From contig JAJBUH010000127.1 of the NCBI GenBank assembly GCA_020860445.1, positions 1 to 37,494 on the forward strand: DNA of 37,494 bases, in the 5' to 3' direction. The stretch's first letter is position 1. Every line of letters begins with the position of its first letter. The stretch comes from Bacteroidales bacterium. Its GTDB lineage: Bacteria; Bacteroidota; Bacteroidia; Bacteroidales; Muribaculaceae. The position numbers and the translations under genes were made by a program. Below the pieces are notes generated by a model, which searched no databases, was not told the DNA's origin, and worked only from the letters and a program-made list of their open reading frames with translations. Shown in pieces: positions 3-16,895 of this stretch.

Positions 3-1042
3 TTCAAGCTTCTGCTAAATTACTATCACCGACGCTTGCGTGATACTCCTACAGGGTTTCATCGTTATCTTTATACCAAAATCAATTGGGATGCCCGATT
101 GATTGGGATAAAGGCCTTACCCACTTGTTTCTTGATGAGGTGCATAGATATTCCAATTGGTCACAGGAAATCAAGATGATATATGATTCGATCCAAGACC
201 TGAAAATAGTTTACACAAGCAGTTCGATGCTTGAGATTGAGAAATCCAAAGTAGATTTATCTCGACGCCAATCTGTCTATCACCTATGCGGATTATCGTT
301 CCGAGAATTCCTGGAATATGAAGGAGTATTGACTCTACCCCCATTCCCCTTGGATGAAATACTGGAAAAGCATGTGGCCATCGCTATGGACATAACTGCG
401 AAGATAAAACCTTTGCCCCTCTTTGCTGAGTATCAGCACCACGGTTACTATCCTTTCTACAAGGATTCTTCGATTGATTTCCTTTTGCATCTCTTAAGAG
501 TGGTGCAAAATGTCATAGAGATAGACCTTCCCGCGGTATGCGATATCTCCTATGTTACTGTAGAGAAGACCAAGCAGTTGTTGATGTACATTGCCCAAAA
601 TCCTCCTTTCGAGCCCAAACTCAGCACTCTGTTTAAAGCCATAGAGATGTCGCGTGATAATGGCTTAAAGCTTATCAATTTGTTGGAGAAAGCGGATTTG
701 CTTATGCTCTTTTCTACTAAGAAGCTTAATTACAAGCAACTTGTAATCCCAGAAAAGATACTCCTCCAGAATGCGAATATTATGAGAGCCCTATCTGAAA
801 AGAATAGTTCGGGGAGTGCGCGTGAGGCATTCTTCTTAAATCAATTGAGACAAGCCCACCAGATGAGGATGCCACCATCGGGAGATTTCTTTGTTGACGA
901 GAAATACACATTTGAGGTCGGAGGACCCAACAAGACCTTTGACCAAATCGCCAACCTCCCCGATAGTTTCTTGGCGATAGACGACATTGAAATCGGTTAT
1001 GGCCACCGCATCCCCCTTTGGATGTTTGGCCTCCTCTACTAA
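3..1042 (+). pseudogene. AAA_14/DUF4143-type ATPase, internally deleted and frameshifted (5' end outside window)
   Basis: Frame from bp 3 reads FKLLLNYYHRRLRDTPTGFHRYLYTKINWDARLIGIK, the usual N-terminus of this family just before Walker A. Sequence then jumps to another frame at GLTHLFLDEVHRYSNW (Walker B) and continues to the family C-terminus ...AIDDIEIGYGHRIPLWMFGLLY*. Walker A is missing. Confidence 0.8.
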
Positions 1043-1163
1043 CGCCACCAGCGTCAGCAGCGGCGGGGCGACACCCTCGCCAGCCCATGCCGCAAAAGCT
1101 AATTTCGCCATTAAGGCAGCGTAGCCCCAGTGTGGCCGCGCCGCCCTCGGCGCAATGCAGCGT

Positions 1164-1263
1164 GCGGAACAGGGGACAGGAACTTGTTCCACCCCTCCCC
1201 CACCCGCAGCAATGCGGAACAGGGGACAGGAACTTGTTCCACTCCTCCCCATCCGCAACCCAT
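1164..1263. repeat. Two tandem ~50-bp units with GGAACAGGGGACAGGAACTTGTTCC hairpin
   Basis: gcggaacaggggacaggaacttgttccac at 1164 and again exactly 50 bp later at 1214; GGAACA/TGTTCC stem. Related copies at 2667 and 5568. Confidence 0.85.
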
Positions 1264-1268
1264 ACCAA

Positions 1269-1491
1269 TAAATTCGGAGATGCCCCCGCTTGCTGGGGCA
1301 TCAACAAGGGTTGGCTATAGCCACATAAAATTGACAGGCTGTGTGATTATTTACGGTTATAGCCGCAAATAATCACACAGCCTGTTGGTGGCCCAGCAAG
1401 CAGGGCCACCTCCGAATTTACTGGCGCATCGCCCACCCTCCTCATCTTTCCCCATTTGCCTTTGTTGTTTAAATAAATTGTCGTAAATTTG
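1269..1491 (+). repeat. REP/BIME-like composite intergenic element, copy 1, ending in a promoter
   Basis: Left hairpin 1279-1302 (GATGCCCC-CGCTTGCT-GGGGCATC); central 19-bp perfect inverted repeat 1334-1352/1367-1385; right inverted hairpin 1387-1410 (GGTGGCCC-AGCAAGCA-GGGCCACC); outer AAATTCGGAG/CTCCGAATTT; tail shared with copies 2 and 3. Confidence 0.85.
1461..1491 (+). promoter_or_regulatory. Bacteroidetes-type promoter inside repeat copy 1
   Basis: TTTG (1461-1464), 19-nt spacer, TAAATTTG (1484-1491), 26 bp before the ATG at 1517. Confidence 0.7.
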
Positions 1492-1516
1492 CGTTGAATG
1501 TAGAAACATTAAAGAT

Positions 1517-1735
1517 ATGGAAGCCAAATCTCTCAACAAAGCCCAAATAGAGGTATTGAACGCCTTAGCCTACTTACACACTGAGGAAGACATCATTGCC
1601 CTAAAGCAGGCCCTCTCTGACTTCTTCGCAAAAAGAGCCGATGAAGAAATGGAGCGCCTGATCGCCTCCGGCCAATGGTCAGACGCCTCCTTAGAGTCCT
1701 TAAAAAATTCCCATTACCGCACACCCTATAGGTAA
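1517..1735 (+). CDS. Small acidic protein, putative antitoxin-like
   Basis: 72-aa ORF MEAKSLNKAQIEVLNALAYLHTEEDIIALKQALSDFFAKRADEEMERL...HYRTPYR behind the repeat-borne promoter; resembles small Bacteroidetes proteins often paired with toxins (recalled, not searched). Confidence 0.6.
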   Translation: MEAKSLNKAQIEVLNALAYLHTEEDIIALKQALSDFFAKRADEEMERLIASGQWSDASLESLKNSHYRTPYR

Positions 1736-1773
1736 TTACAATGAAAGGATTGTTGTAAACCCCAATACATTTT

Positions 1774-2724
1774 ATGTTGATGGACCTATCAAATAAAATA
1801 GAGGAAATCAGAAATCTGAATCTCGATATCCACATAGATTTTAAATCCTTTCCCCTTCGGAAGGAAATTGATTCCTATTCCCTATTATCAATTGTGCCGT
1901 ATCAACAATTTTGGCGCGTATTAGATGCTGATAAAAAAGTCATAGCCAGCTATTGGCAAGCCGAATTCGATGAAATGCTCCCATTCCATGATGGTTTTTC
2001 GTTCGTAAGAAAAGGCGATAAATGGGGGATTGTTGATTTGTATGGTGATGTTTGGGAACCCCTCATTCATACAAATCCTGATGAGCTCATAGTAATTTCC
2101 AATTCTTTTGAGTCAATACCTTTGGAATTGTACCTTAGGGATAATAGACTAAAAGATGAAAATCTCCTTGATGAGGATGGGTACCATGGGTTGAAAGACT
2201 CAGTAACGGGGGAGCAAATTGTCGAGGCTAAATTTAAATCTTCCTTGTCCTTACGTTTTGGCTTAGCTGCCACCACACTTGATGGTGAACGGTGGGGTTT
2301 TATTGACTCAACGGGTCAGTTTGCAATTCCCCCAATTTTTGATTGGGCTTTCTCTTTCTCTTGTGGCCTTGCCGCAGTGGAATTAGATGGGAAATGGGGC
2401 TATATAACCCCCCATGGGGTCTTCGTATTGCCTCCAATTTATGATCATGCAGCATATTTCAACTATGGTTTGGCCCCTGTGAGAAACAAAGATTGGAAGT
2501 ATGGATATATTGACAGAGAGGGCAATACGGTATTGCCCTTCGTCTTTAACTCTGCCGACAGTTTTAATCTAAAAATGGATACTAAAACCGTATTGGCCAA
2601 TATAAGCATAAACGGAACTCGTCTCCGAATGACCCCCTCAGGCCAAATCATTACCCCCCTAAGCCTGCGGAACAGGGGACAGGAACTTGTTCAACCCCTC
2701 CCCACACGCAACCCGTACCAATAA
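1774..2724 (+). CDS. WG repeat-containing protein
   Basis: Repeated KWGIVD / RWGFIDSTGQFAIPPIFDWA / KWGYITPHGVFVLPPIYDHA / KYGYIDREGNTVLPFVFNSA motifs typical of WG (KWG) repeats. Confidence 0.85.
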   Translation: MLMDLSNKIEEIRNLNLDIHIDFKSFPLRKEIDSYSLLSIVPYQQFWRVLDADKKVIASYWQAEFDEMLPFHDGFSFVRKGDKWGIVDLYGDVWEPLIHTNPDELIVISNSFESIPLELYLRDNRLKDENLLDEDGYHGLKDSVTGEQIVEAKFKSSLSLRFGLAATTLDGERWGFIDSTGQFAIPPIFDWAFSFSCGLAAVELDGKWGYITPHGVFVLPPIYDHAAYFNYGLAPVRNKDWKYGYIDREGNTVLPFVFNSADSFNLKMDTKTVLANISINGTRLRMTPSGQIITPLSLRNRGQELVQPLPTRNPYQ

Positions 2725-3009
2725 ATTCGGAGATGCCCCCGCTTGCTGGGGCATCAACAAGTTTTGACCTTGCCTCTGACATTGCCTCTGACCTTTGGTT
2801 TCACCTTACTCCCTTAAGATTATTTGCGGCTATAGCCGCATAAAATTGGCATGACGTGTGATTATTTACGGTTATAGCCGCAAATAATCACACAGCCTGT
2901 TGGTGGCCCAGCAAGCGGGGCCACCTCCGAATTTATGGGCGCATCGCCACCCCCCTCCTTAACTTTTCCCTTCCCCCCTTTGTTATCTCAATAAAAAGCG
3001 GTAAATTTG
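2667..3009 (+). repeat. REP/BIME-like composite element, copy 2, ending in a promoter
   Basis: ggggacagg hairpin at 2669-2693; left hairpin 2732-2755; palindrome GCGGCTATAGCCGC near 2826; central inverted repeat 2856-2867/2882-2893; right hairpin 2902-2925; tail homologous to copy 1. Confidence 0.85.
2979..3009 (+). promoter_or_regulatory. Bacteroidetes-type promoter inside repeat copy 2
   Basis: TTTG (2979-2982), 19-nt spacer, TAAATTTG (3002-3009), 22 bp before the ATG at 3031. Confidence 0.7.
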
Positions 3010-3030
3010 CATTGAAATATCCCTAAGCCA

Positions 3031-3567
3031 ATGCCCTACAGACTCAACATAACATTTGACGACAAGGAGACGGTCTACGAAGCAGCTCGGCTCCTCTCCA
3101 CCCTTCCCGGCGTGAGCATTGAGGAGGAGATCTGTGGCGCACACGAGCAAGAGGCCACTTATGGCACCAACCCTCAGAGACGCATAGCATGGGACAAATG
3201 GCTGTCGCCATCCTTGCGGGAGCAGCATAGGCAATGGCGCAAACAGCTCGATGAAATCGAGGGATTGGAACAAGACTGGGATGAGGAGGGTGCATACCCT
3301 GTTGAGAAAAGTCTTATAAATTTGGTTAGGGAGTTTGTGGCTGGAGCATCAGAGAGAATTCTTAAGAACTGGTGGGTGGCGCCTGTCGCCAACGGTTCCC
3401 TGCTGATTGCACCCGAAGCCGGAGGCGACTCTTCGGTGAGCATCGGCACCAACGGTATTGCCTTCTACGCTGCCACCCCACAGAGGGAAATGAGTGGCCA
3501 ACTCCCCTCCCAATCCGACATCCTCCTCCCCCTCATGGAAATCCTAACCCTTATGTTGAAACCATGA
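3031..3567 (+). CDS. Hypothetical protein, first gene of a coupled pair
   Basis: 178-aa ORF behind repeat-borne promoter; C-terminal half LDEIEGLEQDWDEEGAYPVEKSLIN...NWWVAPVANGSLLIAPE. Confidence 0.75.
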   Translation: MPYRLNITFDDKETVYEAARLLSTLPGVSIEEEICGAHEQEATYGTNPQRRIAWDKWLSPSLREQHRQWRKQLDEIEGLEQDWDEEGAYPVEKSLINLVREFVAGASERILKNWWVAPVANGSLLIAPEAGGDSSVSIGTNGIAFYAATPQREMSGQLPSQSDILLPLMEILTLMLKP

Positions 3568-3986
3568 TCCGTCCCATAAACGATTCTGAGGACATAGTTA
3601 GATTCTTGAGGCCCAAGCATCTTACCAGACAAGGCCATCCCATGGTCAACGCATTCATCCTCCGCAAGCTACCAAGTGGAATCGATGAGGATTACGCATC
3701 CGTGATGCGTTATGGTTACCAAGGGTATTATCCCTCCATTGCAACCTGCCCATTGAAAAATGCTATAGGGTTCCTTCAATTCAATGCAGGACGATTCAGA
3801 GAATTGGAAACTCCAACAAGCCTATCAGCGACTATAGTGCCTAAGCCTACCGCATCATACCCGTCTCATGCTGGGCTCTACGTCTATCTCAATGGTACAA
3901 TCGTAAAGGGTGAATGCGTTGACAACAACTACCGCAGACTGCTGCAGAAAATAATAGACATTTCAACCCTGAATAAGTGGTCCTAA
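3564..3986 (+). CDS. Hypothetical protein, second gene of a coupled pair
   Basis: ATG at 3564 overlaps the previous stop (ATGA); 140 aa MIRPINDSEDIVRFLRPKHLTRQGHPMVNAFILRK...LNKWS. The listed ORF start at 3372 is upstream and out of frame with the preceding gene, so unlikely. Confidence 0.75.
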   Translation: MIRPINDSEDIVRFLRPKHLTRQGHPMVNAFILRKLPSGIDEDYASVMRYGYQGYYPSIATCPLKNAIGFLQFNAGRFRELETPTSLSATIVPKPTASYPSHAGLYVYLNGTIVKGECVDNNYRRLLQKIIDISTLNKWS

Positions 3987-3998
3987 CCTACCTATGGA

Positions 3999-4093
3999 GC
4001 GGGGCCACCTCCGAATTTACTGGCGCATCGCCACCCCCCTCCTTAACTTTTCCCTTTCCCCCTTTGTTATCTCAATAATTAGGCGTGATTGAA
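3999..4093 (+). repeat. Truncated composite element, copy 3
   Basis: GCGGGGCCACCTCCGAATTTACTGGCGCATCGCCACCCCCCTCCTTAACTTTTCCC...TTTGTTATCTCAATAA matches the right half of copies 1 and 2. TTTG retained at 4063 but the -7 box reads TGATTGAA. Confidence 0.8.
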
Positions 4094-4299
4094 ACCACTG
4101 AAAAGCCTAATCATCCTCACCAAAAATATCGTCACAAGAATCGCAATACACAAGGAGCCAGTCTCCCTTCAAATTGCACCTTCCACCACTAAAGTGGCGG
4201 CTCCGGCCTACCGCTCCTCCTCGCCTACTGAGGGCCTGCGAGGGCTCCGGGCCCACCAGGCTAAACGCGACACGCATCTCCGCAGCCCTGCTCCCAACA

Positions 4300-4390
4300 A
4301 AAACTGGTCGAGAAAAGTGCGATAACAACACAAAAACTGGCCGAGAAAAGTGTGATAACAACTCCAAAACTGGCCGAGAAAAGTGTAATT
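4300..4390 (+). repeat. 33-bp direct repeats, about 2.8 units, upstream of ATPase promoter
   Basis: aaaactgg(t/c)cgagaaaagtg(c/t)gataacaac.. starts at 4300, 4333 and 4366: exact 33-bp period. Confidence 0.9.
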
Positions 4391-4393
4391 TAT

Positions 4394-4424
4394 TTTGTAA
4401 TTCAAATATTTACCCTTAAATTTG
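4394..4424 (+). promoter_or_regulatory. Bacteroidetes-type promoter for ATPase remnant
   Basis: TTTG (4394-4397), 19-nt spacer, TAAATTTG (4417-4424), ATG at 4455. Confidence 0.65.
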
Positions 4425-4454
4425 CAAAACAATCAAAATTTACACCCTTCAGCC

Positions 4455-5530
4455 ATGTACCGCACCATCATCGAAGACCTTAAAAAATGGAAAGATTCCT
4501 CTATGCGAAAGCCTTTGATCCTCAACGGCGCTCGCCAAGTGGGGAATACTTCTGCGAAGACCCAAGAGACTACCACGTAGCCGTGGCAGGCTCGCTGCTG
4601 GGCATCACGTTGCATCCGGGCGTATCTTTCCCCGTAGGAAAGGTGGATATGCTCTCGCTCCGACCGATGGACTTCCGGGAATTTTTACTGGCTTTAGGCA
4701 AAAACAACCTGGTGGAGAGCTTGGATCACGGCGACTGGAATGTGCTTACGGGGATACACAGCATGATGGTGGAGCTGCTGCGTCAATACTATTTCGTAGG
4801 AGGAATGCCTGAGGCAGTGAATCTATATGTTGCTACAAATGACCCTATAGAGGTAAGAAAGGTGCAGCAAAACATTCTGCTCGCCTATCGCGACGACATA
4901 TCAAAGCATGCCCCCACCAACGAAGCCATGCGCATCGGACAAGTTTGGAAATCCATCCCATCCCAACTGGCAAAGGAAAACAAAAAGTTCATCTTTTCCG
5001 CCGTCAGGTCTGGCGCTCGAGCCAAGGATTTCGAGCTGGCTATCCAATGGCTTATCGACAGTGGACTGGTCTACAAAGTGAATCGTATATCAAAACCTAC
5101 GCTCCCTCTGAGTTTCTACGAGGATATGAATGTATTCAAACTTTTCGTGCTTGATTGCGGACTGCTCGGGGCCATGAGCGAGACCCCTCCAAGCCGCATG
5201 CTACTGGGCAGCGATGTGTTTGAGGAATACAAGGGAGCATTCACCGAGAATTTCGTGCAATGCCAATTGGCAACAATACCAGATATGCGCATCTGTTACT
5301 ATACCAATGAGAATTCTACTCTGGAGATTGATTTCGTGGTGCAGCTCGACGACCGAATTATCCCCATCGAAGCGAAAGCCGAAATAAGCACCCAAGCCAA
5401 ATCATTCAAGCAATTCCTCAGCGACAATCCCTCGCTCAAGGGCATCCGCCTCTCAATGCTCCCCTACCGCGACCAAGAACGCTTGGTCAATTATCCCCTC
5501 TACTCCCTCCCCTTCTCCTTCTCAAAATAA
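4455..5530 (+). pseudogene. AAA+/DUF4143 ATPase with deletion from Walker A past Walker B, frameshifted
   Basis: ATG at 4455 reads MYRTIIEDLKKWKDSSMRKPLILNGARQVG then changes frame to EYFCEDPRDYHVAVAGSLLGITLHPGVSFPVGKVDMLSLRPMDFREFLL... through the DUF4143 C-terminus. Confidence 0.85.
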
Positions 5531-5567
5531 GTCCACCAACCGCCCCCTCCTACAGAGGAAGCCCTTT

Positions 5568-5677
5568 GTGAACCGGGGACAGGTTCCCGTTCACATCATT
5601 TCTCAGAATCCCCCACCCGCAACCCGAAGCAATAAATTCGGAGATGGCCCAGCAAGCGGGGGCGCCTCCGAATTTAT
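5568..5677. repeat. Collapsed composite element, copy 4
   Basis: GTGAACCGGGGACAGGTTCCCGTTCAC hairpin 5568-5594, then AAATTCGGAGATGGCCCAGCAAGCGGGGGCGCCTCCGAATTT, which fuses the left flank to the right hairpin. Confidence 0.75.
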
Positions 5678-5689
5678 GGGGAGAACCGA

Positions 5690-7048
5690 TTATAAAGACA
5701 GGAGATAGGTGCAATACTTTTGCAGGATATTCTGAATTGGCAAATCGCCATGGTGGTATCTCTCGGCATCTAGTGGAGAGATAGATTCTTCAAATCTTTT
5801 TCCTTGGTAATAGCCAGAGAGAATTGTAGATTCCCCATTGCTCTGGATGCTCACCTCGGTGCAATCTTTGAGCAAAAACTCAATTTCCTTGGTGTAGCAC
5901 AGTGAGTAGCTGGGTCGCTTTGCATCGGGGATATCAATTAGTAACAGCCCTTTGGCAAGGAGATCTTGAATATCACGAATAGCCGTATCTTTTGAGCATT
6001 TGTTTATGGCTGCCCATGCCTTTGAGGTGATTTTTGCCTCATATCCATCCAAGAACAGATTTAGGGTATCCACCTGTCGCTGCGAGAGAGGGATGCCTGC
6101 GGCGTTCTGCCAAAAGAAGGCTTTGTTTAACACCTGCGATACGATGCTCTGCGCTCCCTTGATGGCCTTTATCAGCGTATTGACGTACCATGCCATCCAT
6201 GCTGTGATGTCCATGGTGCCATTTTGGGTTTGCTCCATCACGGCATAATAATGCCTCTTGTCACGGTTGATGTAGGTAGAGATGTTGTAAAACCGAAATG
6301 GGTTGGCTGCGCTGCGCGACAGGAATATGTCGCCGATGATGCGAGCAAGGCGACCATTGCCGTCCTCAAAGGGATGGATGGTGACGAACCACAGATGGGC
6401 TATCGCCGACTTGGCTATAGGCGAGAGCGCATCAGTCTCGTTGCACCAATTCAAAAAGGTTTCCATTTCGGCATCAACCTGCTCGGGTGCTGGAGCGCGG
6501 AAATGCACCTTCTCTCTACCCATAAAGCCCGAGACGACCACCTCTTCGTTGGTGCGGTATTGGCCAACCTTGATGGGAATGCCGCCGCTGCGGCCGGTAG
6601 GGAAGTAGGCGCCTTGCCAGGCGCATAGCCTGTCCTTGGTCAGGGGCTCGGAGTAATGCTCAGTGGCATCCATCATCACCTCGACCAGGCCATCGATGTA
6701 GTGGGTCTCGCCTTCGGTGTTTTTATAATCAAGCCCTAATCGGCGAGCTACCGATGAACGCACTATGTCGGCATTCAGCTTCAGCCCTTCGATCTCAGAG
6801 GATTGCATCAGGTCGTCGGCGATATTTTGGGCCGTAGATTTGAGCCGGTCTTCCCAACCCAAGGTTGACAAGCGGCCATAGAGGGCCGACTGAAGTCTCA
6901 GGGCTTCGTCAAGCATAGGGCTGATTATGTCATTGTCCCATTGCCAGTGGGGCCAATCGGGTTGATGATAGATATACATTCGGCGAATAGGGTCAAAAAA
7001 CGTCTCAAATTTTACGGCAAATTTAATGATTATACGTCTAACAACCAA
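5690..7048 (-). CDS. Fic family protein with DUF4172-like N-terminus
   Basis: Fic motif HPFEDGNGRLARII; upstream SSEIEG matches the (S/T)xxxE(G/N) inhibitory motif; true start may be the internal MYIYHQPDWPHWQWD. Confidence 0.9.
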   Translation of the reverse strand: MVVRRIIIKFAVKFETFFDPIRRMYIYHQPDWPHWQWDNDIISPMLDEALRLQSALYGRLSTLGWEDRLKSTAQNIADDLMQSSEIEGLKLNADIVRSSVARRLGLDYKNTEGETHYIDGLVEVMMDATEHYSEPLTKDRLCAWQGAYFPTGRSGGIPIKVGQYRTNEEVVVSGFMGREKVHFRAPAPEQVDAEMETFLNWCNETDALSPIAKSAIAHLWFVTIHPFEDGNGRLARIIGDIFLSRSAANPFRFYNISTYINRDKRHYYAVMEQTQNGTMDITAWMAWYVNTLIKAIKGAQSIVSQVLNKAFFWQNAAGIPLSQRQVDTLNLFLDGYEAKITSKAWAAINKCSKDTAIRDIQDLLAKGLLLIDIPDAKRPSYSLCYTKEIEFLLKDCTEVSIQSNGESTILSGYYQGKRFEESISPLDAERYHHGDLPIQNILQKYCTYLLSL

Positions 7049-7145
7049 ATCCTCTCAAAAAAATAATCAGTCAATTTGGTCATTAGGGATATAATCATTA
7101 ACTTTGTAATCATTGAAAGTTTAATGATTGAGACCTTAATGATGA
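7024..7145. promoter_or_regulatory. Divergent regulatory region with repeated TAATSATT boxes and a promoter
   Basis: TAATGATTA 7024, TAATCATTA 7092, TAATCATTG 7107, TAATGATTG 7122, TAATGATGA 7137; promoter TTTG 7075-7078, 20 nt, TAACTTTG 7099-7106. Confidence 0.6.
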
Positions 7146-7146
7146 T

Positions 7147-7401
7147 ATGAGCAGTGAGGAGCAAAGAAGGCCCAACAATCCCTTTGTAGTGGGGAGATAT
7201 GTGGGCGGAGAATATTTCTGCGACAGAGAGGAAGAGACCCGGTTTATGCTCAAGTTTATCCAACGCCACTCATTGGACACCGCAAGTTCGGTGCAATCGG
7301 CCCTCAGGCCGCTGCTCAAATCCGACCTTGTCACGCAGGCTGATGACTCCTACCAGCTCTCCGACTTCTTCCTCAGCCAATGGCTCAAAGAAAATTATTG
7401 A
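7147..7401 (+). pseudogene. ATPase (PF01637-like) remnant: N-terminus fused to C-terminus
   Basis: 84 aa: NPFVVGRYVGGEYFCDREEETRF (family N-terminus) directly followed by HSLDTASSVQSALRPLLKSDLVTQADDSYQLSDFFLSQWL (family C-terminus); whole P-loop core absent. Confidence 0.8.
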
Positions 7402-8308: not shown

Positions 8309-8327
8309 CTCATATTGAAACCTGATT

Positions 8328-9518
8328 ATGGAAATGAATGAATCGTTTTGGAAATTTGTAGAGATGAACCTTAAGGGTGAGCCAGCGGGGCTGAGGCTGA
8401 AGTATCACGGGAAAGAGATGGGTTTTGACATGGAATTGGCTATTACTCAGATTGAGTGTAGGCGCAAATTCGGCAAGAAGCTGGCTGAAACGCTCGGGGA
8501 GAATCCCCACTTCCTGTTTCCCTCGGTGCTGGCGGGCGAACAGGCGACCTCAGACCTCCTCGCCGCCTACCACGCCCAGCTCGCTGGCGCCGACAAGCGC
8601 ATCATCGACCTCACCGCGGGCCTCGGCATCGACGCTCTGCACCTCGCCGCACGCAACACCGTGACCGCAGTAGAAAAAGACCCCGACAAAGCCGCTGCCC
8701 TCAGCCTCAACAGCCACGGCACGATCGAGGTCAAAAATGAAATGTGCGAAGACGTCATCGCCCAAGCCGCAGATAGCGGCCAGAAGTTCGACCTCGCATT
8801 CATCGACCCGGCGCGCCGCGACGCCTCGGGCGGTCGCCTTTTCGCTCTCGCCGACTGCCAACCCGACGTCTGCGCCCTGCAGCCCGCAATCCACAGAATC
8901 GCTGACCAACTGATCGTCAAGGCCTCGCCCATGCTCGACATCACCATGATGGCCAACTCGCTGCAAGGACTGAAAGAGATAATCGCCCTGGGCACCCCCA
9001 CCGAATGCAAAGAGCTGGTGGCCATCTGCGAGCGCGGCTACCAAGGCGACTACCACGTCTCGGCCGTGACCCTTGCGCCCCACCCCATCGATTTCTGCTT
9101 CACCACAGACGAAGAAAAAGCCGCCCGCGCCAACTACTCCCTGCCCCAACCCGGCGCCTACATCTTCGAACCCTACCCGGCAGTGATGAAAGCCGCGCCC
9201 TACAACATGCTCGCCCAGCACTACGGCATAGAAAAGCTCCACCCCAACACCCATCTGTATTGGGGCAAAGAAATGGCCCAAGCCGAAATGCCGGGCCATA
9301 AATATAGAATCCTGAAAGTCTTGCCTTACGAATCGCGCCACATCAAGCGCCTGAGCAAAGAATACCCAGCCATGCAAGTCGCCACGCGAAATTTCGACCT
9401 CCCAGCCGAGGCGCTGCGCAAAAAGCTGAAGGTCAAGGACGGCGACCAGGTGAGGCTCTACGCCGTCACCGTAGCCGATGGATCGAAGGCGATGATCATC
9501 ACCGAACCCATTGATTAA
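8328..9518 (+). CDS. Class I SAM-dependent methyltransferase with THUMP-like C-terminus
   Basis: 396 aa; SAM motif RIIDLTAGLGIDALHLA; FDLAFIDPARRD. Confidence 0.8.
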   Translation: MEMNESFWKFVEMNLKGEPAGLRLKYHGKEMGFDMELAITQIECRRKFGKKLAETLGENPHFLFPSVLAGEQATSDLLAAYHAQLAGADKRIIDLTAGLGIDALHLAARNTVTAVEKDPDKAAALSLNSHGTIEVKNEMCEDVIAQAADSGQKFDLAFIDPARRDASGGRLFALADCQPDVCALQPAIHRIADQLIVKASPMLDITMMANSLQGLKEIIALGTPTECKELVAICERGYQGDYHVSAVTLAPHPIDFCFTTDEEKAARANYSLPQPGAYIFEPYPAVMKAAPYNMLAQHYGIEKLHPNTHLYWGKEMAQAEMPGHKYRILKVLPYESRHIKRLSKEYPAMQVATRNFDLPAEALRKKLKVKDGDQVRLYAVTVADGSKAMIITEPID

Positions 9519-10670
9519 GCCGCGCCAAAGCCACGGCGTAGGCATGCTCAGCCTCGAGATACGAGGCTGTGGCCTCGCGGTAATACTGGATCTCGCCCAG
9601 ATAGTCGATAATCGACAACTCGCCGCCATCGTAAGCGCGCTGCAGCACAGCCATATAGGCATTGTCGCCAAACACCCGCTGGTAAGCCTCGACTTGGCGT
9701 CGCCAAGCCTGCGCCTCGGCCATTTCGGCTCGTATCGACTGTTCGGCTTGCGCCGCTACAGCCTCGGCTTGCGCCTCAGCGCTCTGTTTGCGCAGCAATG
9801 CTGCCGACCGCGCATGCCTATTCTCAAAGAACGGCAACTTGATGCCAGCCGTCAAGCCATTGAATCGGTCGCCCATCTCGGCCTGATGCTCATAGCCCAC
9901 CGAGAAACCCGGAAACCGCTGCTGCCGCGCCACTCGCGCCTGAGCCTCAGCGCTCTCCTGAGCGCTGACCAGCGCCAGATATTCCGGATTGAGCAACCGC
10001 ACCTGCTCCTGGTATTCCTCCATGCTCAGCAGGGGTTCTACCGGGTATTCCCTGACATCGCCCAGCCGTAGCTGCGCCCCGGGAGCCATCTGCTGCAGCT
10101 CGGAAATCAGTTGTCGTTCTTGCGATTCCTGAGCGGCTATCTCAGCCTCAATCTTATAGGTCTCGATGGCAAGTTTCTTCTGGTCCAATATGGTGACCTG
10201 GCCGTGGCTGTAGGAAAATTCCATCGCCTGGGCCATGCGCCTCACATACCCCATCAGCTCCTGCTGCAACGCCATCTGGCGCCGCAACAGCACCAGGTCG
10301 AGCAATTTCTCCTTTGCCTCAAGAGCCGTCTGTGATATCTGGGCTTCAATCTCGGCCTCGGCCGCGCTAATCTCAAACTTGGTGGCTTGGCTGCGCGCCC
10401 GGTACAGGCCGGGCCAGTCAAACTCCTGGCTCACATCAAGTTGCAACTTGTTGCCAATGCCATGGCGCCCCACACGCGGGTGAAGTCGACCGAGGGGTTG
10501 GCCAGACTGTTCTCATCCTTAAGCTCAAGGGCTTGCACATTCATCTCATCCCGCTGGGCCTGAAGCTCGGGATTGTTTGCAACGATGGCGCTGACGGCCT
10601 CGGAAATGGGGTCCTGCGCTCGCAGGGTCGTCGCTCCTATCAGCATCAGCGACAGCAGAATCTTGTTCAT
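9499..10670 (-). pseudogene. TolC/CusC-like outer membrane efflux protein, frameshifted
   Basis: N-terminal ORF 10431-10670 and C-terminal ORF 9499-10473 join at VWG/HGIGNKLQLDVSQEFDWPG in different frames near 10465. Confidence 0.75.
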
Positions 10671-13600
10671 CTCGGTTGGGTTCTGTTCTTTACCAATAAA
10701 TAAATAGCTGGGACCACTATCAGATTGAGAATGGTCGAGGAAATGATTCCACCTAAAATAACAATCGCGAGTGGAGATTGGATTTCATTTCCGGGCAAAT
10801 TCCCCTTTATTACAATCGGTATAAGGGCCAGAGCCGTGGTGAGGGCCGTCATCACGATGGGCAAGAGACGGTCAGTAGAACCCTGCATCACCCTCTGTCG
10901 GAGCCCCACGCCGGCAGCCTCGAGGGCATTGTAGCGCGAGATCAGCAGCATGCCATTGCGGGTGGTGATGCCGAGCAGAGAGATAAAGCCGATGATGGCC
11001 GGGATGTTGAGGTCGGCGCCCGTGAAGAAGAGAACAAGCACACCACCGATCATAGCCAACGGCATATTGACAAGCACGATGAGCGATTCGCGCCAGTCGC
11101 CAAACTCGTGGTAGAGCAGCATGAAGATTATCAGCAGCGCGCCAAGCGAGGTCCATAGCAGGGTGCGCGATGCCGAGGCCTCGCTCTCAAACTGGCCGCC
11201 GTACTCGACATAGTAATTCTGAGGCAGCACCACCTGCTCCTCGATGGCTCGGCGCATATCATTGACCGCGCCGCGCAGGTCGCGACCCTCGACATTGGCC
11301 GAGATGACAATGCGGCGCTTAACATTCTCGCGGTTGATGGCATTGGGGCCGGTGGAAGAGATGAAGTCGGCGACCGTTGACAGCGGCACCATGCCAAAGC
11401 GCGAATCAATCGAAATCTCCTTGAGGCCATCAATCGTGGCGCGGCTCTGTTCGTCAAAAATCACCACGAGGTCGTAGGGCTGAGCCTCTTCGTAAACCTT
11501 CGATACCGCCTTGCCACCCATTGCTGTCTCGATGACATCGCGCAGTTGGGCCGAAGTGATGCCGTAGGCAGCCATCATCTCGCGCTTGGGGCGTATGTCA
11601 AGTTGGGGACGCTCCATCTGTTGCTCGATATTGGCATCAACCACCCCGGGAATGCCCTCGATAGCCTCCTTGATCTCATTGCCAGTGAGGAAGAGCAAAG
11701 GCAGGTCATCGCCAAACAGCTTTATAGCCACCTGAGCCTCAGTGCCAGAGAGCATGGCATCGATGCGGTGCGAGATGGGTTGGCCAATCTCGATGTTGAC
11801 GCCGGGGAGCTGCGACAACTTCTGGCGCAACTCCTTGGCAACCTCGCCACGGCTGCGGCCCGACAGTTTATAAGGCGCCTCGATTTCTGATACATTTACG
11901 CCGAGCGAGTGTTCGTCGAGTTCTGAGCGTCCAGTCTTGCGCGCCACAGTCTGAATCTCCGGCACACTCATTATAAGCTCCTCGGCTATGCGGCCCACCT
12001 GGTCGCTCTCGTCGAGCGCGATACCCGGCAGAGTAGAGACATTGATGGTGAACGAACCTTCGTTGAACGGCGGCAAGAAGCTCCTGCCCAGCGTAAAGAA
12101 CAAGCCCACAGCCACGGCGAACAATGCGCCAGTGGCCCAAAGCATAGCCTTGCCCCCTCGCGGCAGCGCATAAGCGCCAGTGCCCTTGAGGCCGAGCCAA
12201 CGGGCCAGCAAGCGAGAGTATCCCTCGCGCAACTTTACACTGACCCAAGGCTGCTTGGCCATCTTCTCCATCGCCTTTTTAGTGCCAAGAAGCATGCTGC
12301 AAAGCACCGGAGTGACTGTCAGCGCCACGATGGTCGAGGCAATCAAGGCCACGATAAACGCCACGCCCAGGGGTATCAGCATCCTGCCTTCCATTCCGCT
12401 GAGGAAGAAGAGCGGCAAGAACGAGGCAATGATAATCAGCGAAGAGTTGAAAATCGGCATTCTCACTTCGGCCGAGGCGTGGTACACCACATCGAGCATC
12501 CCCTTGCGTTCGACCTTAGGCTTGGCATGATTCTCGCGCAGGCGCTTGTAGACATTCTCGACATCCACAATCGCATCATCGACGAGCGAACCAATAGCAA
12601 TGGCAATGCCGCCAAGGCTCATAGTATTGATGGTAAACCCGAAGGCATGCAGCACCAGCAAGGTCAGGATAATCGACAGAGGCAGAGCCACAAGCGAAAC
12701 GATTGTTGCCCTGAGATTCATCAGGAAGAAGAACAAAACCATCACCACAAAGATGGCGCCCTCGAAGAGCGAACTTTGGAGATTGCCAATCGAGCGGTCG
12801 ATGAAATCGCTCTGCCGGAATATGTCGGTCGAAATGGTAATGTCAGTGGGCAATGAGGCGCGTAGGGTCTCAAGCCTCTCCTCAATCTCTTGCGTCAAGG
12901 GTATGGTGCCAGCGCCGGGTTGCTTGGTCACGGTAATCAGCACTCCCTCCTGACCCTGGATCGAGGCTGTGCCGAGACGCTGAGCCGCCGGAGCCACGGT
13001 CACTTGGGCTATGTCACCCAAGGTGACGATGCCTTGATCGTCGCTGCGCACCACGCTGTGCTCAATGTCGTCCGCGCTCTTTGCGCTCATATCGCCCTTG
13101 ACGATGTACTCGTTGCCGTATTGATACAAGCTGCCGCCTCCCACATTGTCGTTGAGGCTCTCGGTGGCGGCAATCACTTCTTGCAATGTCACGCCGCGCT
13201 GACGCATAGCCGCCGAGGAGAGTTGGATTTGGTATTCCTTGGGTTCGCCTCCCAACACCGACACCTGGGCCACGCCAGCCATGGCGAGCAGACGCGGAGC
13301 AATCGTGCGGTCGGCTATGTCGCGCAGCTCCATCACCGAGGTTGAATCAGCCGTAAGGCCGATAATCATCATCTCGCCAAGAATCGACGACTGCGGACCC
13401 ATAGTAGGCACGCCAGCCCCGGGAGGAAAGTCCTCGGCAAGGGATGTGATGCGTTCTGCCACCGTCTGCCGAGCATGGTAGATATCAGTGTCCCAGTCAA
13501 ATTCGACCCATACCACAGAGAAGCCCGAAGAAGAGGCCGAACGTACGCGCCTCACCCCGGAGGCGCCATTGACGGCAGTCTCGATGGGAAAAGTTATAGA

Positions 13601-13789
13601 TCTCTCAACCTCCTCGGGGGCCATGCCTTGCGCCTCGGTCATCACCACCACGGTGGGAGCGTTGAGGTCGGGAAAGATGTCGACATCCATGCGCAGGAGG
13701 GCAGCCATGCCGGCAGCCATAGCCACGATGGTCAGCACCAGCACGGTGAGCCGGCTCTGCAATGAGAATTTTATGATTCTATTCAGCAT
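10667..13789 (-). CDS. CusA/CzcA-family RND efflux permease
   Basis: 1040 aa full-length RND; DVDIFPDLNAPTVVVMTEAQGMAPEEVERSITFPIE; ATGA overlap with downstream outer-membrane factor. Confidence 0.92.
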   Translation of the reverse strand: MLNRIIKFSLQSRLTVLVLTIVAMAAGMAALLRMDVDIFPDLNAPTVVVMTEAQGMAPEEVERSITFPIETAVNGASGVRRVRSASSSGFSVVWVEFDWDTDIYHARQTVAERITSLAEDFPPGAGVPTMGPQSSILGEMMIIGLTADSTSVMELRDIADRTIAPRLLAMAGVAQVSVLGGEPKEYQIQLSSAAMRQRGVTLQEVIAATESLNDNVGGGSLYQYGNEYIVKGDMSAKSADDIEHSVVRSDDQGIVTLGDIAQVTVAPAAQRLGTASIQGQEGVLITVTKQPGAGTIPLTQEIEERLETLRASLPTDITISTDIFRQSDFIDRSIGNLQSSLFEGAIFVVMVLFFFLMNLRATIVSLVALPLSIILTLLVLHAFGFTINTMSLGGIAIAIGSLVDDAIVDVENVYKRLRENHAKPKVERKGMLDVVYHASAEVRMPIFNSSLIIIASFLPLFFLSGMEGRMLIPLGVAFIVALIASTIVALTVTPVLCSMLLGTKKAMEKMAKQPWVSVKLREGYSRLLARWLGLKGTGAYALPRGGKAMLWATGALFAVAVGLFFTLGRSFLPPFNEGSFTINVSTLPGIALDESDQVGRIAEELIMSVPEIQTVARKTGRSELDEHSLGVNVSEIEAPYKLSGRSRGEVAKELRQKLSQLPGVNIEIGQPISHRIDAMLSGTEAQVAIKLFGDDLPLLFLTGNEIKEAIEGIPGVVDANIEQQMERPQLDIRPKREMMAAYGITSAQLRDVIETAMGGKAVSKVYEEAQPYDLVVIFDEQSRATIDGLKEISIDSRFGMVPLSTVADFISSTGPNAINRENVKRRIVISANVEGRDLRGAVNDMRRAIEEQVVLPQNYYVEYGGQFESEASASRTLLWTSLGALLIIFMLLYHEFGDWRESLIVLVNMPLAMIGGVLVLFFTGADLNIPAIIGFISLLGITTRNGMLLISRYNALEAAGVGLRQRVMQGSTDRLLPIVMTALTTALALIPIVIKGNLPGNEIQSPLAIVILGGIISSTILNLIVVPAIYLLVKNRTQPR

Positions 13790-13801
13790 AGTCCTACCCC
13801 A

Positions 13802-14928
13802 TTAATGGTTATGGCTATGCCCCTCGGGGGCTACGCGACTGCTCTCGGCCAGCCTAACTGCCACTACCCCATCGACCACAATCTGTTCATCGCCATTCAG
13901 GCCAGAGAGAATCTCAACATTGGTGCCATCGTTGGCTCCAATCTTGACGGGGAGCTTCTCATAGCAGTCGTCATCAATCTGGCGATACACGAAATATGCG
14001 CCCTGCTGTTCTGACAGAGCCGACAGAGGCACTGACATTGCGCCCGCTACTGGTTCGCCCAGCAAGTACACCTTAAGATAAGAGCCATGGGTGAGCTGGC
14101 CGTTGTTGTCAAAGGTGAAATACAGAGGCACGTATCCTCTCTGGCTTGCAATGCCCTTAGGCGAAGTGATGCGCTTGGCACCCATCTCATCCAGGCTGTA
14201 CACTTGGCCAGTGATGGGGTCGGCAACGTTGGCCGATGATATCTGGGGCAGGCGTGAACGGAAACGCTCGGGCAAGTCGGCCCTCAATGTCAACATCTCC
14301 TCGCTGCAAGCCACAGCGATCGGGGTGCCAGCCTCGACATATTCACCCTCTTGCACCAGCATACGGGTGATTACACCATCGATGGGCGACACAGCTTGAC
14401 CCGAGGCAGCCGACGCGCTATATGCAGCCTTGGCTTGCTTGTAGGCCTGTTCGGCCTCGGCATAAGTTTTGGCAGTCACGATGCGCTCCTCGTAGAGGGG
14501 GGGGTGATGCGGTCCAGTTCTGCCTTTGCCGCCTCCAATGCGGCGAGGGCCACAGCGTTGGCATCGCCGCCGGTGAGGCTCGACGCCGAGATATGGGCCA
14601 CGACCTCGCCGCGTCGCACCTCGGTGCCATCCATCATGTGAGGCGCGTATTTCACCACTCCCGATGTGGGAGCCGCGATGGCAGATGACGAATTAGGCGT
14701 ATCCACTATCTCGCCAGCCACAGTGATGGCTGGACGGAACTCGCCCACACTTACGGGCTGAGCCTTCACGCCAAAACGCTCGGCGCTCTGCGGCGCCAAG
14801 GTAATTTCACTCCCAGTCTCTGTTTCTGGATGGTCATGATGATGACCTACTTCATCATCTGAATGTTTGTGGCCACAAGCAGTCAAACACAAAGACCCGA
14901 CTGCAAGCCAGAAATATTTTGCTTTCAT
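13802..14928 (-). pseudogene. RND efflux periplasmic adaptor (HlyD/CusB-like), frameshifted at a G8/C8 tract
   Basis: ORFs 14476-14928 (lipoprotein N-terminus, His-rich GHHHDHPE) and 13802-14479 join at AELDRITP(P)LYEERIVTAKTYAEAE; run of 8 G at 14497-14504 on the plus strand. Confidence 0.8.
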
Positions 14929-14973
14929 TTTATTGAGAAAAGTAAGATAAAGACAAATTGCCCATCGTGAGGC

Positions 14974-15951
14974 TCATGCGTGCTGAGCGCAACTCCCAGC
15001 AGCTTTGGGCCGATGTTGGGCCTTATATAGTTGATAAGAATTGACCAGATTATGCCAAATGCTGTAAAATCCGCCCACAATCGAGGTGATTGGGGTGAAG
15101 AAAGTGTAGCCCAGCCAGATAGCCAGCACAGTATTTTTCTGCCCGAGCGCCTGACCAGCAGTGACCTTGTCGCCATATACGGCTCCAATCTTGCGCCCAG
15201 CCCAGAATTGCAGAGCGCAACTCGCCAGCGACACCACCACGAGCCATCCTTGGGTTGACAGCGGCACCTGGCTGTGCACGATGCTGCGAGTTGTTACCAC
15301 CATAGCGAGGGTCAATGCCACAAGCCAAAGGTAGAAAGGCGCATCCTGCATCTTGAGCAATTGGGCATGCAGCGGCGGTGCGAGATAGCGCACCAGCAGA
15401 GCCAACACCAAGGGCAGGAGCAACAGCGGAAACACCTTGCCAAGTATAAGCATCGAGGCGTTGAATACCGTCATGCTCGGATTGGGATGCACAAAGGGCA
15501 GCAAGGCCGGGATGAGGAGCGCGGCTGCCAGATTGATAAGAATCGTGTAGGTGGTGATTTGCTCGACATTGCCGCCGAGTTTGCGAGTGATGACAGCCGC
15601 GGCCGTGGCCGTGGGACAGATAAAGCATATCATAGCGCCCTCGAGCACCACGCGCAGATGGCTGTCAGGCAAGCACACAAGCACCAGGCCGATCAGGGTG
15701 AAGAGTCCGCACTGGATGAGCAACAGCCAACCAAGCCAGGGACTGAGCCGCAGATGGTGAGGGTCGATCTTGCAAAAAGTAAAGAAAAGCATCATGAAGA
15801 TGAGAGCGGGCTGCAGAAAATCTACAGCCTCGCGGGCGAAGGCTGAAGCCCTCTCCAGAAGCGGGATATTCACAAAGATGAAATACCCAGCCACACCGCT
15901 CACCATGGCTATGATGAGCGCCCAGTCGCGCAAATATTGGATTCCTTTCAT
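14974..15951 (-). CDS. BASS-like (bile acid:sodium symporter) transporter
   Basis: 325 aa, multiple TM segments; ICPTATAAAVITRKLGGNVEQITTYTILINL. Confidence 0.65.
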   Translation of the reverse strand: MKGIQYLRDWALIIAMVSGVAGYFIFVNIPLLERASAFAREAVDFLQPALIFMMLFFTFCKIDPHHLRLSPWLGWLLLIQCGLFTLIGLVLVCLPDSHLRVVLEGAMICFICPTATAAAVITRKLGGNVEQITTYTILINLAAALLIPALLPFVHPNPSMTVFNASMLILGKVFPLLLLPLVLALLVRYLAPPLHAQLLKMQDAPFYLWLVALTLAMVVTTRSIVHSQVPLSTQGWLVVVSLASCALQFWAGRKIGAVYGDKVTAGQALGQKNTVLAIWLGYTFFTPITSIVGGFYSIWHNLVNSYQLYKAQHRPKAAGSCAQHA

Positions 15952-16063
15952 TTCAATTGCAAAATTACGAATTTTATTTAAGAAAATACGCTATCTTTGC
16001 TACACAATTCCACTGTGGAGTTGCATAATTATAAATCAGTCCCATTTTCATCCCACATAAGCA

Positions 16064-16612
16064 ATGGATTCTGCACCTTATAGCCCAATGCAAATGATCA
16101 AGCGCCATTTGTTTGCCATGCGCAATGGCGTGATAGCCGACACTCTGCGCCGTGGCGGTTCGCCTTTTTCAATCATTTTTGGCGTGAATCTGCCCCAACT
16201 GACCGAGATAGCCGCGACCCATGGGCCAGACCGCGAATTGGCCGAAAAGCTGTGGGCCAACACCACCACTCGCGAGAGCATGCTCCTGGCCCCGATGCTG
16301 ATGCCAAGAGAGGATTTCAGCGAGGACCAGGCTATCCGCTGGGCCGAGCAGTCGCCATGCCCCGAGGTGACCGATGTGCTGTGCCTGAAACTGCTGCGCC
16401 ATCAGCCCTACGCCTTGGATTTGGTCAGAAAGCTGGCGGACGACCCAAAGCCGATGTCGCGCTACGCCGCGCTCAGGCTGATGTGCAATCTGGCTCCACA
16501 GAACATTGAAATGGCGGTCGAGATAGGCAGACGGGCGCAACCTGAGGTAGCCCAGTATCCCCAAACTCGCCAGCCAGTCGAGGTGCTGCTCAGTTATGCC
16601 GACCTCGACTGA
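16064..16612 (+). CDS. DNA alkylation repair-like (HEAT-like) protein
   Basis: 182 aa; GVNLPQLTEIA...ELAEKLWANTTTRESMLLAPMLM; promoter-like TATCTTTG upstream. Confidence 0.65.
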   Translation: MDSAPYSPMQMIKRHLFAMRNGVIADTLRRGGSPFSIIFGVNLPQLTEIAATHGPDRELAEKLWANTTTRESMLLAPMLMPREDFSEDQAIRWAEQSPCPEVTDVLCLKLLRHQPYALDLVRKLADDPKPMSRYAALRLMCNLAPQNIEMAVEIGRRAQPEVAQYPQTRQPVEVLLSYADLD

Positions 16613-16895
16613 GCAAGCCGGCACTGTCGAGTTTCTCCTCGACGGCGCTGACAAAGGCCTCGGCAGCAAGGGTGTCGCCGGCAGCTTTAATCCTCTCCTC
16701 GCGGGCGCGGATAGCGAGCAATGCTTTTTCTTGCTCAACCGAACCCTTGGGCAGACTTAGCACCTGCTCGGCGGCTTCGTATCCTTTTTGTATAGCGTAT
16801 AATTCATTGGCAGTCAACTCTCTGGCCTTCTCATGATGGCACCCAGCCATCACCGCGCCCACAGCCACCACCAACAAAAATTTTTCATTCTTCAT
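16590..16895 (-). CDS. Putative small lipoprotein
   Basis: 101 aa, VGAVMAGCHHEK lipobox; convergent overlap with the previous gene. Confidence 0.6.
   Translation of the reverse strand: MKNEKFLLVVAVGAVMAGCHHEKARELTANELYAIQKGYEAAEQVLSLPKGSVEQEKALLAIRAREERIKAAGDTLAAEAFVSAVEEKLDSAGLLSRGRHN

Follow-up and report, generated by a model that had tools for sequence, protein, structure and literature searches.

Internal deletions and private promoter repeat arrays in a large P-loop ATPase set of a Bacteroidales genome

Why should three neighbouring P-loop ATPase genes all lack the segment that binds the nucleotide? The question is raised by the first 7.4 kb of a 37,494-nucleotide stretch of DNA (the window) from a Bacteroidales bacterium of the Muribaculaceae, which is contig C257 (JAJBUH010000127.1, assembly GCA_020860445.1) of the genome denoted here G000, window base 1 being contig base 1. 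A first-pass annotation had described these genes (ATPases 1, 2 and 3) as members of at least two families and suggested a common cause for their lesions, either selection against ATPase activity or recombination and slippage, possibly in an inactivated island. We compared them with their relatives in G000, a draft genome of 4.14 Mb in 281 contigs (98% complete), and in G004, a draft sister genome of the same genus (4.5 Mb). The nucleotide-binding segment is indeed missing from all three, which belong to three subfamilies: AAA_14 without DUF4143, AAA_14 plus DUF4143 (the PADLOC defence candidate PDC-S01) and ATPase_2/PF01637-like, respectively. In our judgement they are quite probably decayed members of a fast-turnover set of single-gene ATPases, with private promoter arrays that are likely operators bound by the genes' own products.

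Three genes without their nucleotide-binding segment

The missing segments were placed by alignment to G000:C70 (for ATPase 1), L046 and plasmid homologues (ATPase 2) and G004:C24 (ATPase 3), the comparison with homologues and sister strains that the first-pass annotation had called for. G004:C24 is an intact gene of 382 codons at the same place as ATPase 3, and 894 bp of it (298 internal codons, in frame) are missing at window position 7254|7255, with 96% and 90% identity on either side of the 894-bp insert. The DNA is syntenic with the sister from 7255 on (8325-16783 at 90%). As the gene is intact at the same place in G004, the deletion is derived in the G000 lineage. Only the two ends of ATPase 3 were retained, as first described, but they measure 36 and 48 codons, not ~25 and ~45. 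Their differences from the sister comprise 9 synonymous and 4 non-synonymous changes, a ratio that is uninformative because part of this divergence is older than the deletion. A chimera of paralogues was rejected, since both halves match one sister gene. The remnant has no Pfam match, and its family was assigned by orthology and by the subfamily profile A1; the intact sister copy aligns with 220 of the 225 positions of PF01637 (ATPase_2, 'ATPase domain predominantly from Archaea') at 31.7 bits, just under the cut-off of 33.2. The family carries an N-terminal F-x-D-R-E motif ahead of the P-loop.

Relative to its intact paralogue G000:C70 (69% identical), ATPase 1 has lost residues ~45-94, about 50 codons. 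The gap opens at the first Gly of Walker A and closes shortly ahead of Walker B, which is retained (LFLDEVH), in agreement with the jump first noted. The piece at 3-113 (frame 3) reads FKLLLNYYHRRLRDTPTGFHRYLYTKINWDARLIGIK and stops where the G of Walker A is expected, and from ~110 the sequence continues in frame 2 with GLTHLFLDEVHRY..., on to the natural C-terminus. Because the contig begins here, the promoter of the gene and its initial ~8 codons are not included. The AAA_14 match (50.5 bits, against a Pfam cut-off of 27) covers profile positions 64-129 only, that is, without the Walker A part.

ATPase 2 reads MYRTIIEDLKKWKDSSMRKPLILNGARQVG, changes frame, and goes on with GEYFCEDPRDYHVAVAGSLLG... 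(YFCED... onward). Compared with L046, its intact paralogue, and with plasmid homologues (45-55% identical), ~76 residues are gone, among them Walker B and the Lys of Walker A; the P-loop is broken after GARQVG and resumption follows Walker B, as had been read. It matches the PADLOC PDC-S01 model PDLC04786 at 1.1e-124 (model positions 108-429 of 439), and L046 does so at 6e-169, which upholds, at candidate level, the suspected link to defence. Both have the PDC-S01 domain order, AAA_14 (PF13173) followed by DUF4143 (PF13635), but ATPase 2 lacks these two P-loop elements and is a PDC-S01 remnant rather than a functional member. Its DUF4143 (6.5e-31) has the conserved E-x-D...E-x-K residues, the segment EIDFVV...PIEAKAE aligning with relatives. 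The earlier statement of otherwise open frames is true of every piece taken singly, yet the two pieces of ATPase 1, and likewise those of ATPase 2, are in different frames (3-113 versus ~110-1042; 4455-~4544 versus ~4544-5530).

These lesions are part of a wider pattern. G000 carries an unusually large set of such P-loop ATPases, with 64 matches to AAA_14, 27 to ATPase_2 and 31 to DUF4143; the AAA_14 count is similar in G004, and other genomes of the family mostly have 3-25 matches. Paralogues within the ATPase family are only about 20-60% identical to each other. Profiles of the three subfamilies, run over both genomes, gave the following numbers of intact genes and remnants: ATPase3-like, 6 and 4 in G000, 10 and 3 in G004; ATPase1-like, 8 and 6 in G000, 6 and 2 in G004; PDC-S01-like, 13 and 2 in G000, 13 and 4 in G004. 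Remnants thus make up about a quarter of the three subfamilies in each genome, and the deletion seen in the neighbouring window genes is a recurrent event. The lesions differ by lineage: G000:C70 is intact, whereas its orthologue in G004:C7 has lost the part from the start to residue 183, and an intact G004:C7 gene corresponds to G000:C86, which keeps residues ~109-180 only.

Private promoter arrays with a 32-33 bp period

Repeats are found ahead of most intact genes of this set: at least 22 bp of repeated 11-mers lie within 160 bp of the start in 47 of 55 intact ATPases and in 18 of 100 other genes. In a direct-repeat scan with the lag left free over 18-60 bp, significant repeats were detected for 34 of 40 PDC-S01 genes (32 of these at lag 32 or 33), for 11 of 13 ATPase1-like genes (nine at lag 32-33) and for 23 of 173 other genes (three at lag 32-33). 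For lag 32-33 against other genes, Fisher tests give p=4e-27 (PDC-S01) and 2e-10 (ATPase1-like), values to be read with thresholds that were set in the course of the analysis and with paralogues that are non-independent observations, though the unit sequences vary while the period stays. The three other genes with lag 32-33 are L177 and L039, divergent neighbours of ATPase arrays, and L202, itself a PDC-S01 remnant. Inverted rather than direct promoter repeats are commoner in living ATPase3-like genes (11/14), relatives of the PF01637 type, and in other P-loop relatives (28/49).

The arrays are mostly private to their genes. No 12-mer is common to 27 of 44 arrays and 288 kb of other G000 sequence, and most of the remaining arrays share 12-mers with one or two loci only, which is at chance level. 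The unit of the ATPase 2 array has three exact copies in the genome, all in its own promoter, with no other at one mismatch or fewer in 4.1 Mb and a single two-mismatch match elsewhere in G000. Many units combine a recurring half, (G/A)AAAAGTGT or AAACGTG, with a variable half (examples in Table 1). In 17 aligned G000/G004 orthologue pairs, array columns are 76% identical, against 53% for other upstream columns, and in several pairs the interspecies homology starts at the array. Including homologues on plasmids and phage-like contigs, the array set covers Segatella, Parabacteroides, Prevotella, Glaesserella, Fusobacterium, Collinsella, Ruminococcus, Vibrio, Acinetobacter and Criblamydia, and so reaches five phyla besides Bacteroidota; the weakest arrays (for example Ruminococcus, P. 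distasonis and Phocaeicola) miss a stricter direct-repeat threshold. Arrays are also present downstream of the gene at L052, L053, L079, L088, L090 and L095. The PDC-S01 papers that we located do not mention 32-33 bp promoter arrays, and no paper on such arrays turned up in the literature covered, in which DUF4143 itself came up in one unrelated paper.

Each ATPase unit would accordingly consist of a coding sequence and a gene-specific repeat array in its promoter, the latter likely an autoregulatory operator. In living members the array would most likely be bound as an operator by the protein that the same gene encodes, its copies being three helical turns apart; a period of 32-33 bp is close to three turns of B-DNA and fits a multimer on one face of the DNA. 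A different array sequence for each paralogue may prevent cross-regulation among the ~60 copies in one cell. We infer that the cognate ATPase binds the array and that the array regulates its gene. The array may also make its neighbourhood prone to deletion, or promoter and tail may be kept for a reason. DUF4143 has a C-terminal E-x-D...E-x-K core, which hints at a nuclease-like fold with the potential to read DNA; among solved structures the only match was that of the P-loop to midasin. Iteron or centromere-like operator arrays are known, for instance the iterons of plasmid rep genes and parC of ParMRC, and the ATPase arrays resemble them in having several direct repeats, spaced by whole helical turns, right in front of the gene for the presumed binder. 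They differ in being single-gene, mostly chromosomal and present with up to ~60 paralogues per genome, each with a different unit and no partner gene, and in that the binding is presumed.

Deletion geometry and competing explanations

Every remnant with a readable 5' side has its 5' break in the interval from the promoter to about codon 78. This break falls inside the promoter array in C115 and C45, just past the promoter in C86, C261, C60, C67:7904 and C7:14342, at the start codon in C7:11552, and within the gene at codons ~30 (ATPase 2), 33 (C17), 36 (ATPase 3), 42 (C10), 43 (ATPase 1), 45 (C125), 58 (C67), 61 (C94) and ~75 (C17:3562). For twelve deletions, given their own lengths and a uniform start, the joint chance of breaks this early is ~2e-4, a rough and post hoc estimate. 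The clustering is not an obvious ascertainment effect, since remnants with a longer 5' part are easier to detect. The chance that all three window deletions, at their observed lengths, would touch Walker A if placed anywhere in the genes is ~0.009, also post hoc.

The promoter array adjoins a C-terminal tail in C36, C261, C60, C67:7904 (and C10:78057 in G004), C7:14342, C45 and C115, and also in C125; this tally includes every C-terminal-only remnant whose upstream side was clearly read, C136:60458 being not clear. C17:3562, N-terminal only by profile, ends in frame with LPLYMAMFL*, which is the PDC-S01 tail. The common layout of the remnants is therefore promoter array and short head, deletion, and tail. 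The C67:7904 remnant of G000 and C10:78057 of G004 have an identical array-plus-tail build, and by this comparison the remnant seems to be older than the split of the two species. In G004:C45 (L198 1961-2599) the array itself is translated in an open frame, with HFAVACKSYSK repeated (11 residues = 33 bp), and is fused to the C-terminal part of PDC-S01.

We propose that the three window genes are dead or dying members of the set, which is made up of PDC-S01/DUF4143, its AAA_14 relatives and ATPase_2-like paralogues. Separate internal deletions would have disabled them, each beginning close to the promoter, extending for a variable distance into the gene and joined with little or no homology. 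Walker A is usually removed because the deletions start early, and the lesions can be explained without invoking selection against ATPase activity. The common cause first suggested survives in part, as a common geometry of 5' breaks between promoter array and codon ~78; selection and slippage are not supported. Slippage between direct repeats was rejected for the deletions in ATPase 3, the one with a near-identical intact relative, and G004:C7, as the ends of the ATPase 3 deletion show no microhomology, nearby TTTAT copies do not fit the slippage product, and the G004:C7 deletion has ~1 nt of microhomology.

Several observations weigh against decay as the whole account. The tail common to C67:7904 and C10:78057 (L060 4911-5060; L178 1550-1720) carries, by an eye count, 8 synonymous and 4 non-synonymous changes in ~52 codons, fewer non-synonymous ones than expected under free decay. 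The remnants of ATPase 3, C17:23.9k and C17:3.6k are in frame and could yield short proteins, and the 3' end was not kept in C94:15926, C10:80035 and C86. For ATPases 1 and 2, no near-identical intact copy was found, so that the exact breakpoints had to be deduced from homologues of 44-69% identity, and G000 is a draft of 281 contigs. Functional mini-proteins were rejected as an explanation: three remnants are in frame and at least four are frame-shifted, close to the one-third in frame that chance would give.

An unlikely alternative is that selection against ATPase activity, through autoimmunity or toxicity, strips the core while the rest is kept, for example as a C-terminal repressor or decoy under the original promoter. 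The loss of Walker A in all three window genes, the promoter array and tail kept in most remnants, the three in-frame remnants and the conserved look of the C67/C10 tail would agree with this. However, because of the frame shift in ATPases 1 and 2, translation from the native start does not yield their C-terminal part, and in G000 an in-frame TAG closely precedes the C67:7904 tail, with no ordinary start codon ahead of that tail. Walker A is still present in the remnants C67 (4398; 4625-4822), C94:15926, C17:3562 and C125, and C98 and C144 are plain frameshifts, which together show that selection is not for loss of the ATP site; about 60 intact paralogues also persist.

Somewhat more doubtful still is that the arrays are ends or targets of small mobile ATPase cassettes, with the remnants as MITE-like, non-autonomous derivatives moved in trans. 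In 7 of 17 orthologue pairs the homology is limited to gene plus array (about -5..-180 to -18..+173) and the surroundings differ, both ends are mostly kept in remnants, some arrays recur 3' of the gene, and homologues occur on plasmids and phage-like contigs. Other orthologue pairs, though, are syntenic, every array is unique with no multi-copy derivative seen, and transposase and recombinase domains are absent. Neither target-site duplications nor identical recent copies were found, and no empty site was met, though no search aimed at empty sites was made. A related proposal, to which we assign a low probability, is that PDC-S01-type ATPases are selfish or mobile cassettes with a self-recognised iteron array at which the deletions begin, and that array-plus-tail remnants, those of the window among them, persist as non-autonomous or regulatory derivatives, not debris. 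An assembly or sequencing artefact by collapse of similar paralogues, which the 281 contigs, the large paralogous family and the position of ATPase 1 at a contig edge could suggest, is very improbable: the two flanks of the ATPase 3 junction correspond to one sister gene (96%, 90%) with downstream synteny kept, the paralogues are only about 20-60% identical, and similar remnants occur in an independent genome, one of them (C67:7904/C10:78057) in both species.

Neighbouring genes and significance of the decayed set

Table 1. Features of the ATPase region of the window, and examples of array units
Feature	Position or source	Strand	Description
ATPase 1, N-terminal piece	3..113	+	Residues 9-44 of the G000:C70 homologue, frame 3
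ATPase 1, Walker B to natural C-terminus	110..1042	+	Residues 95-403, frame 2; ~50 codons including Walker A gone between the pieces
ATPase 2, promoter array	4297..4390	+	Three direct AAACTGGYCGAGAAAAGTG copies (4301-4319, 4334-4352, 4367-4385); period 33 bp
ATPase 2 (PDC-S01), N-terminal 30 codons	4455..4544	+	Ends at GARQVG inside Walker A
ATPase 2, part after Walker B	4544..5530	+	Other frame; intact DUF4143, E-x-D...E-x-K (PD-(D/E)XK-like) motif; ~76 codons missing before
Fic protein	5690..7048	-	DUF4172 + Fic, HPFEDGNGR motif; intact; between ATPase 2 and ATPase 3
ATPase 3, upstream region	7073..7146	+	TCATTA/TAATGA repeats; 96% identical in sister; sister homology begins here
ATPase 3, N-terminal 36 codons	7147..7254	+	Ends ..YFCDREEETRFMLK
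ATPase 3, C-terminal 48 codons	7255..7401	+	In frame with N-terminal piece
Array unit	ATPase 2, window		ACTGGCCGAGAAAAGTGTG
Array unit	S. copri		GTCCCTCATAAAAGTGTG
Array unit	G000:C158		ACGTCCTTAAAAGTGTG
Array unit	G000:C144		GTGTGAAAAGTGTG

The idea of an inactivated island was abandoned: the Fic gene is intact, the methyltransferase gene at 8328-9518 is open and matches its family, and synteny with the sister extends over 8325-16783 (90%). G004 lacks both ATPase 2 and the Fic gene at the syntenic place, where another gene is flanked by similar intergenic repeats (window 3973-7073 against L037 12222-10473; the gene in the sister is different and secreted-protein-like). The comparison points to a gene replacement between intergenic repeats at this site, and because ATPase 2 and Fic are replaced there, positions 1-7.4 kb are best read as a gene-exchange region, not a dead island.

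Two types of intergenic repeat were noted. Palindromes GGAACAGGGGACAGGAACTTGTTCC / GTGAACCGGGGACAGGTTCCCGTTCAC, with a REP/RAYT-like look, lie at window 1160-1240, 2660-2700 and 5560-5600, and blocks of the form TAAATTCGGAG(A/G)TGCCCC..GCTTGCTGGGGCATCTCCGAATTTA at 1270-1300, 2715-2760 and 5630-5680; both types also flank exchanged genes in the sister genome. A search for RNA elements in the region gave no Rfam match. The gene at 1774-2724 encodes a WG-repeat protein with four repeats, whose 3' end runs into one of the GGGGACAGG intergenic repeats, by which its C-terminus is possibly altered. Small overlapping genes at 3031-3567 and 3564-3986, 92% conserved in the sister and laid out like a two-gene system, have no Pfam or NCBIfam match.

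PDC-S01 is reported to rank fourth in frequency among defence candidates of prokaryotes, with enrichment in Archaea; the status of PDC candidates derives from guilt-by-embedding, with experimental validation pending for most of them (PMC12988326). When 'defence systems' are counted, it should be borne in mind that a substantial fraction of the copies may be dead. Short open reading frames of the array-plus-tail type should be annotated as decayed PDC-S01 genes, not as new small proteins, and translated arrays, as in G004:C45, give rise to spurious annotations of repeat proteins. That genes of a large family which decays fast suffer internal deletions is the ordinary part of these findings; the unusual part is the private 32-33 bp array, which almost all members carry, whether alive or dead. 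With such a phased array before nearly every copy, PDC-S01 ATPases come with a putative cognate DNA site, and what PDC-S01 recognises becomes a direct binding question, with dozens of natural protein-site pairs in one genome.

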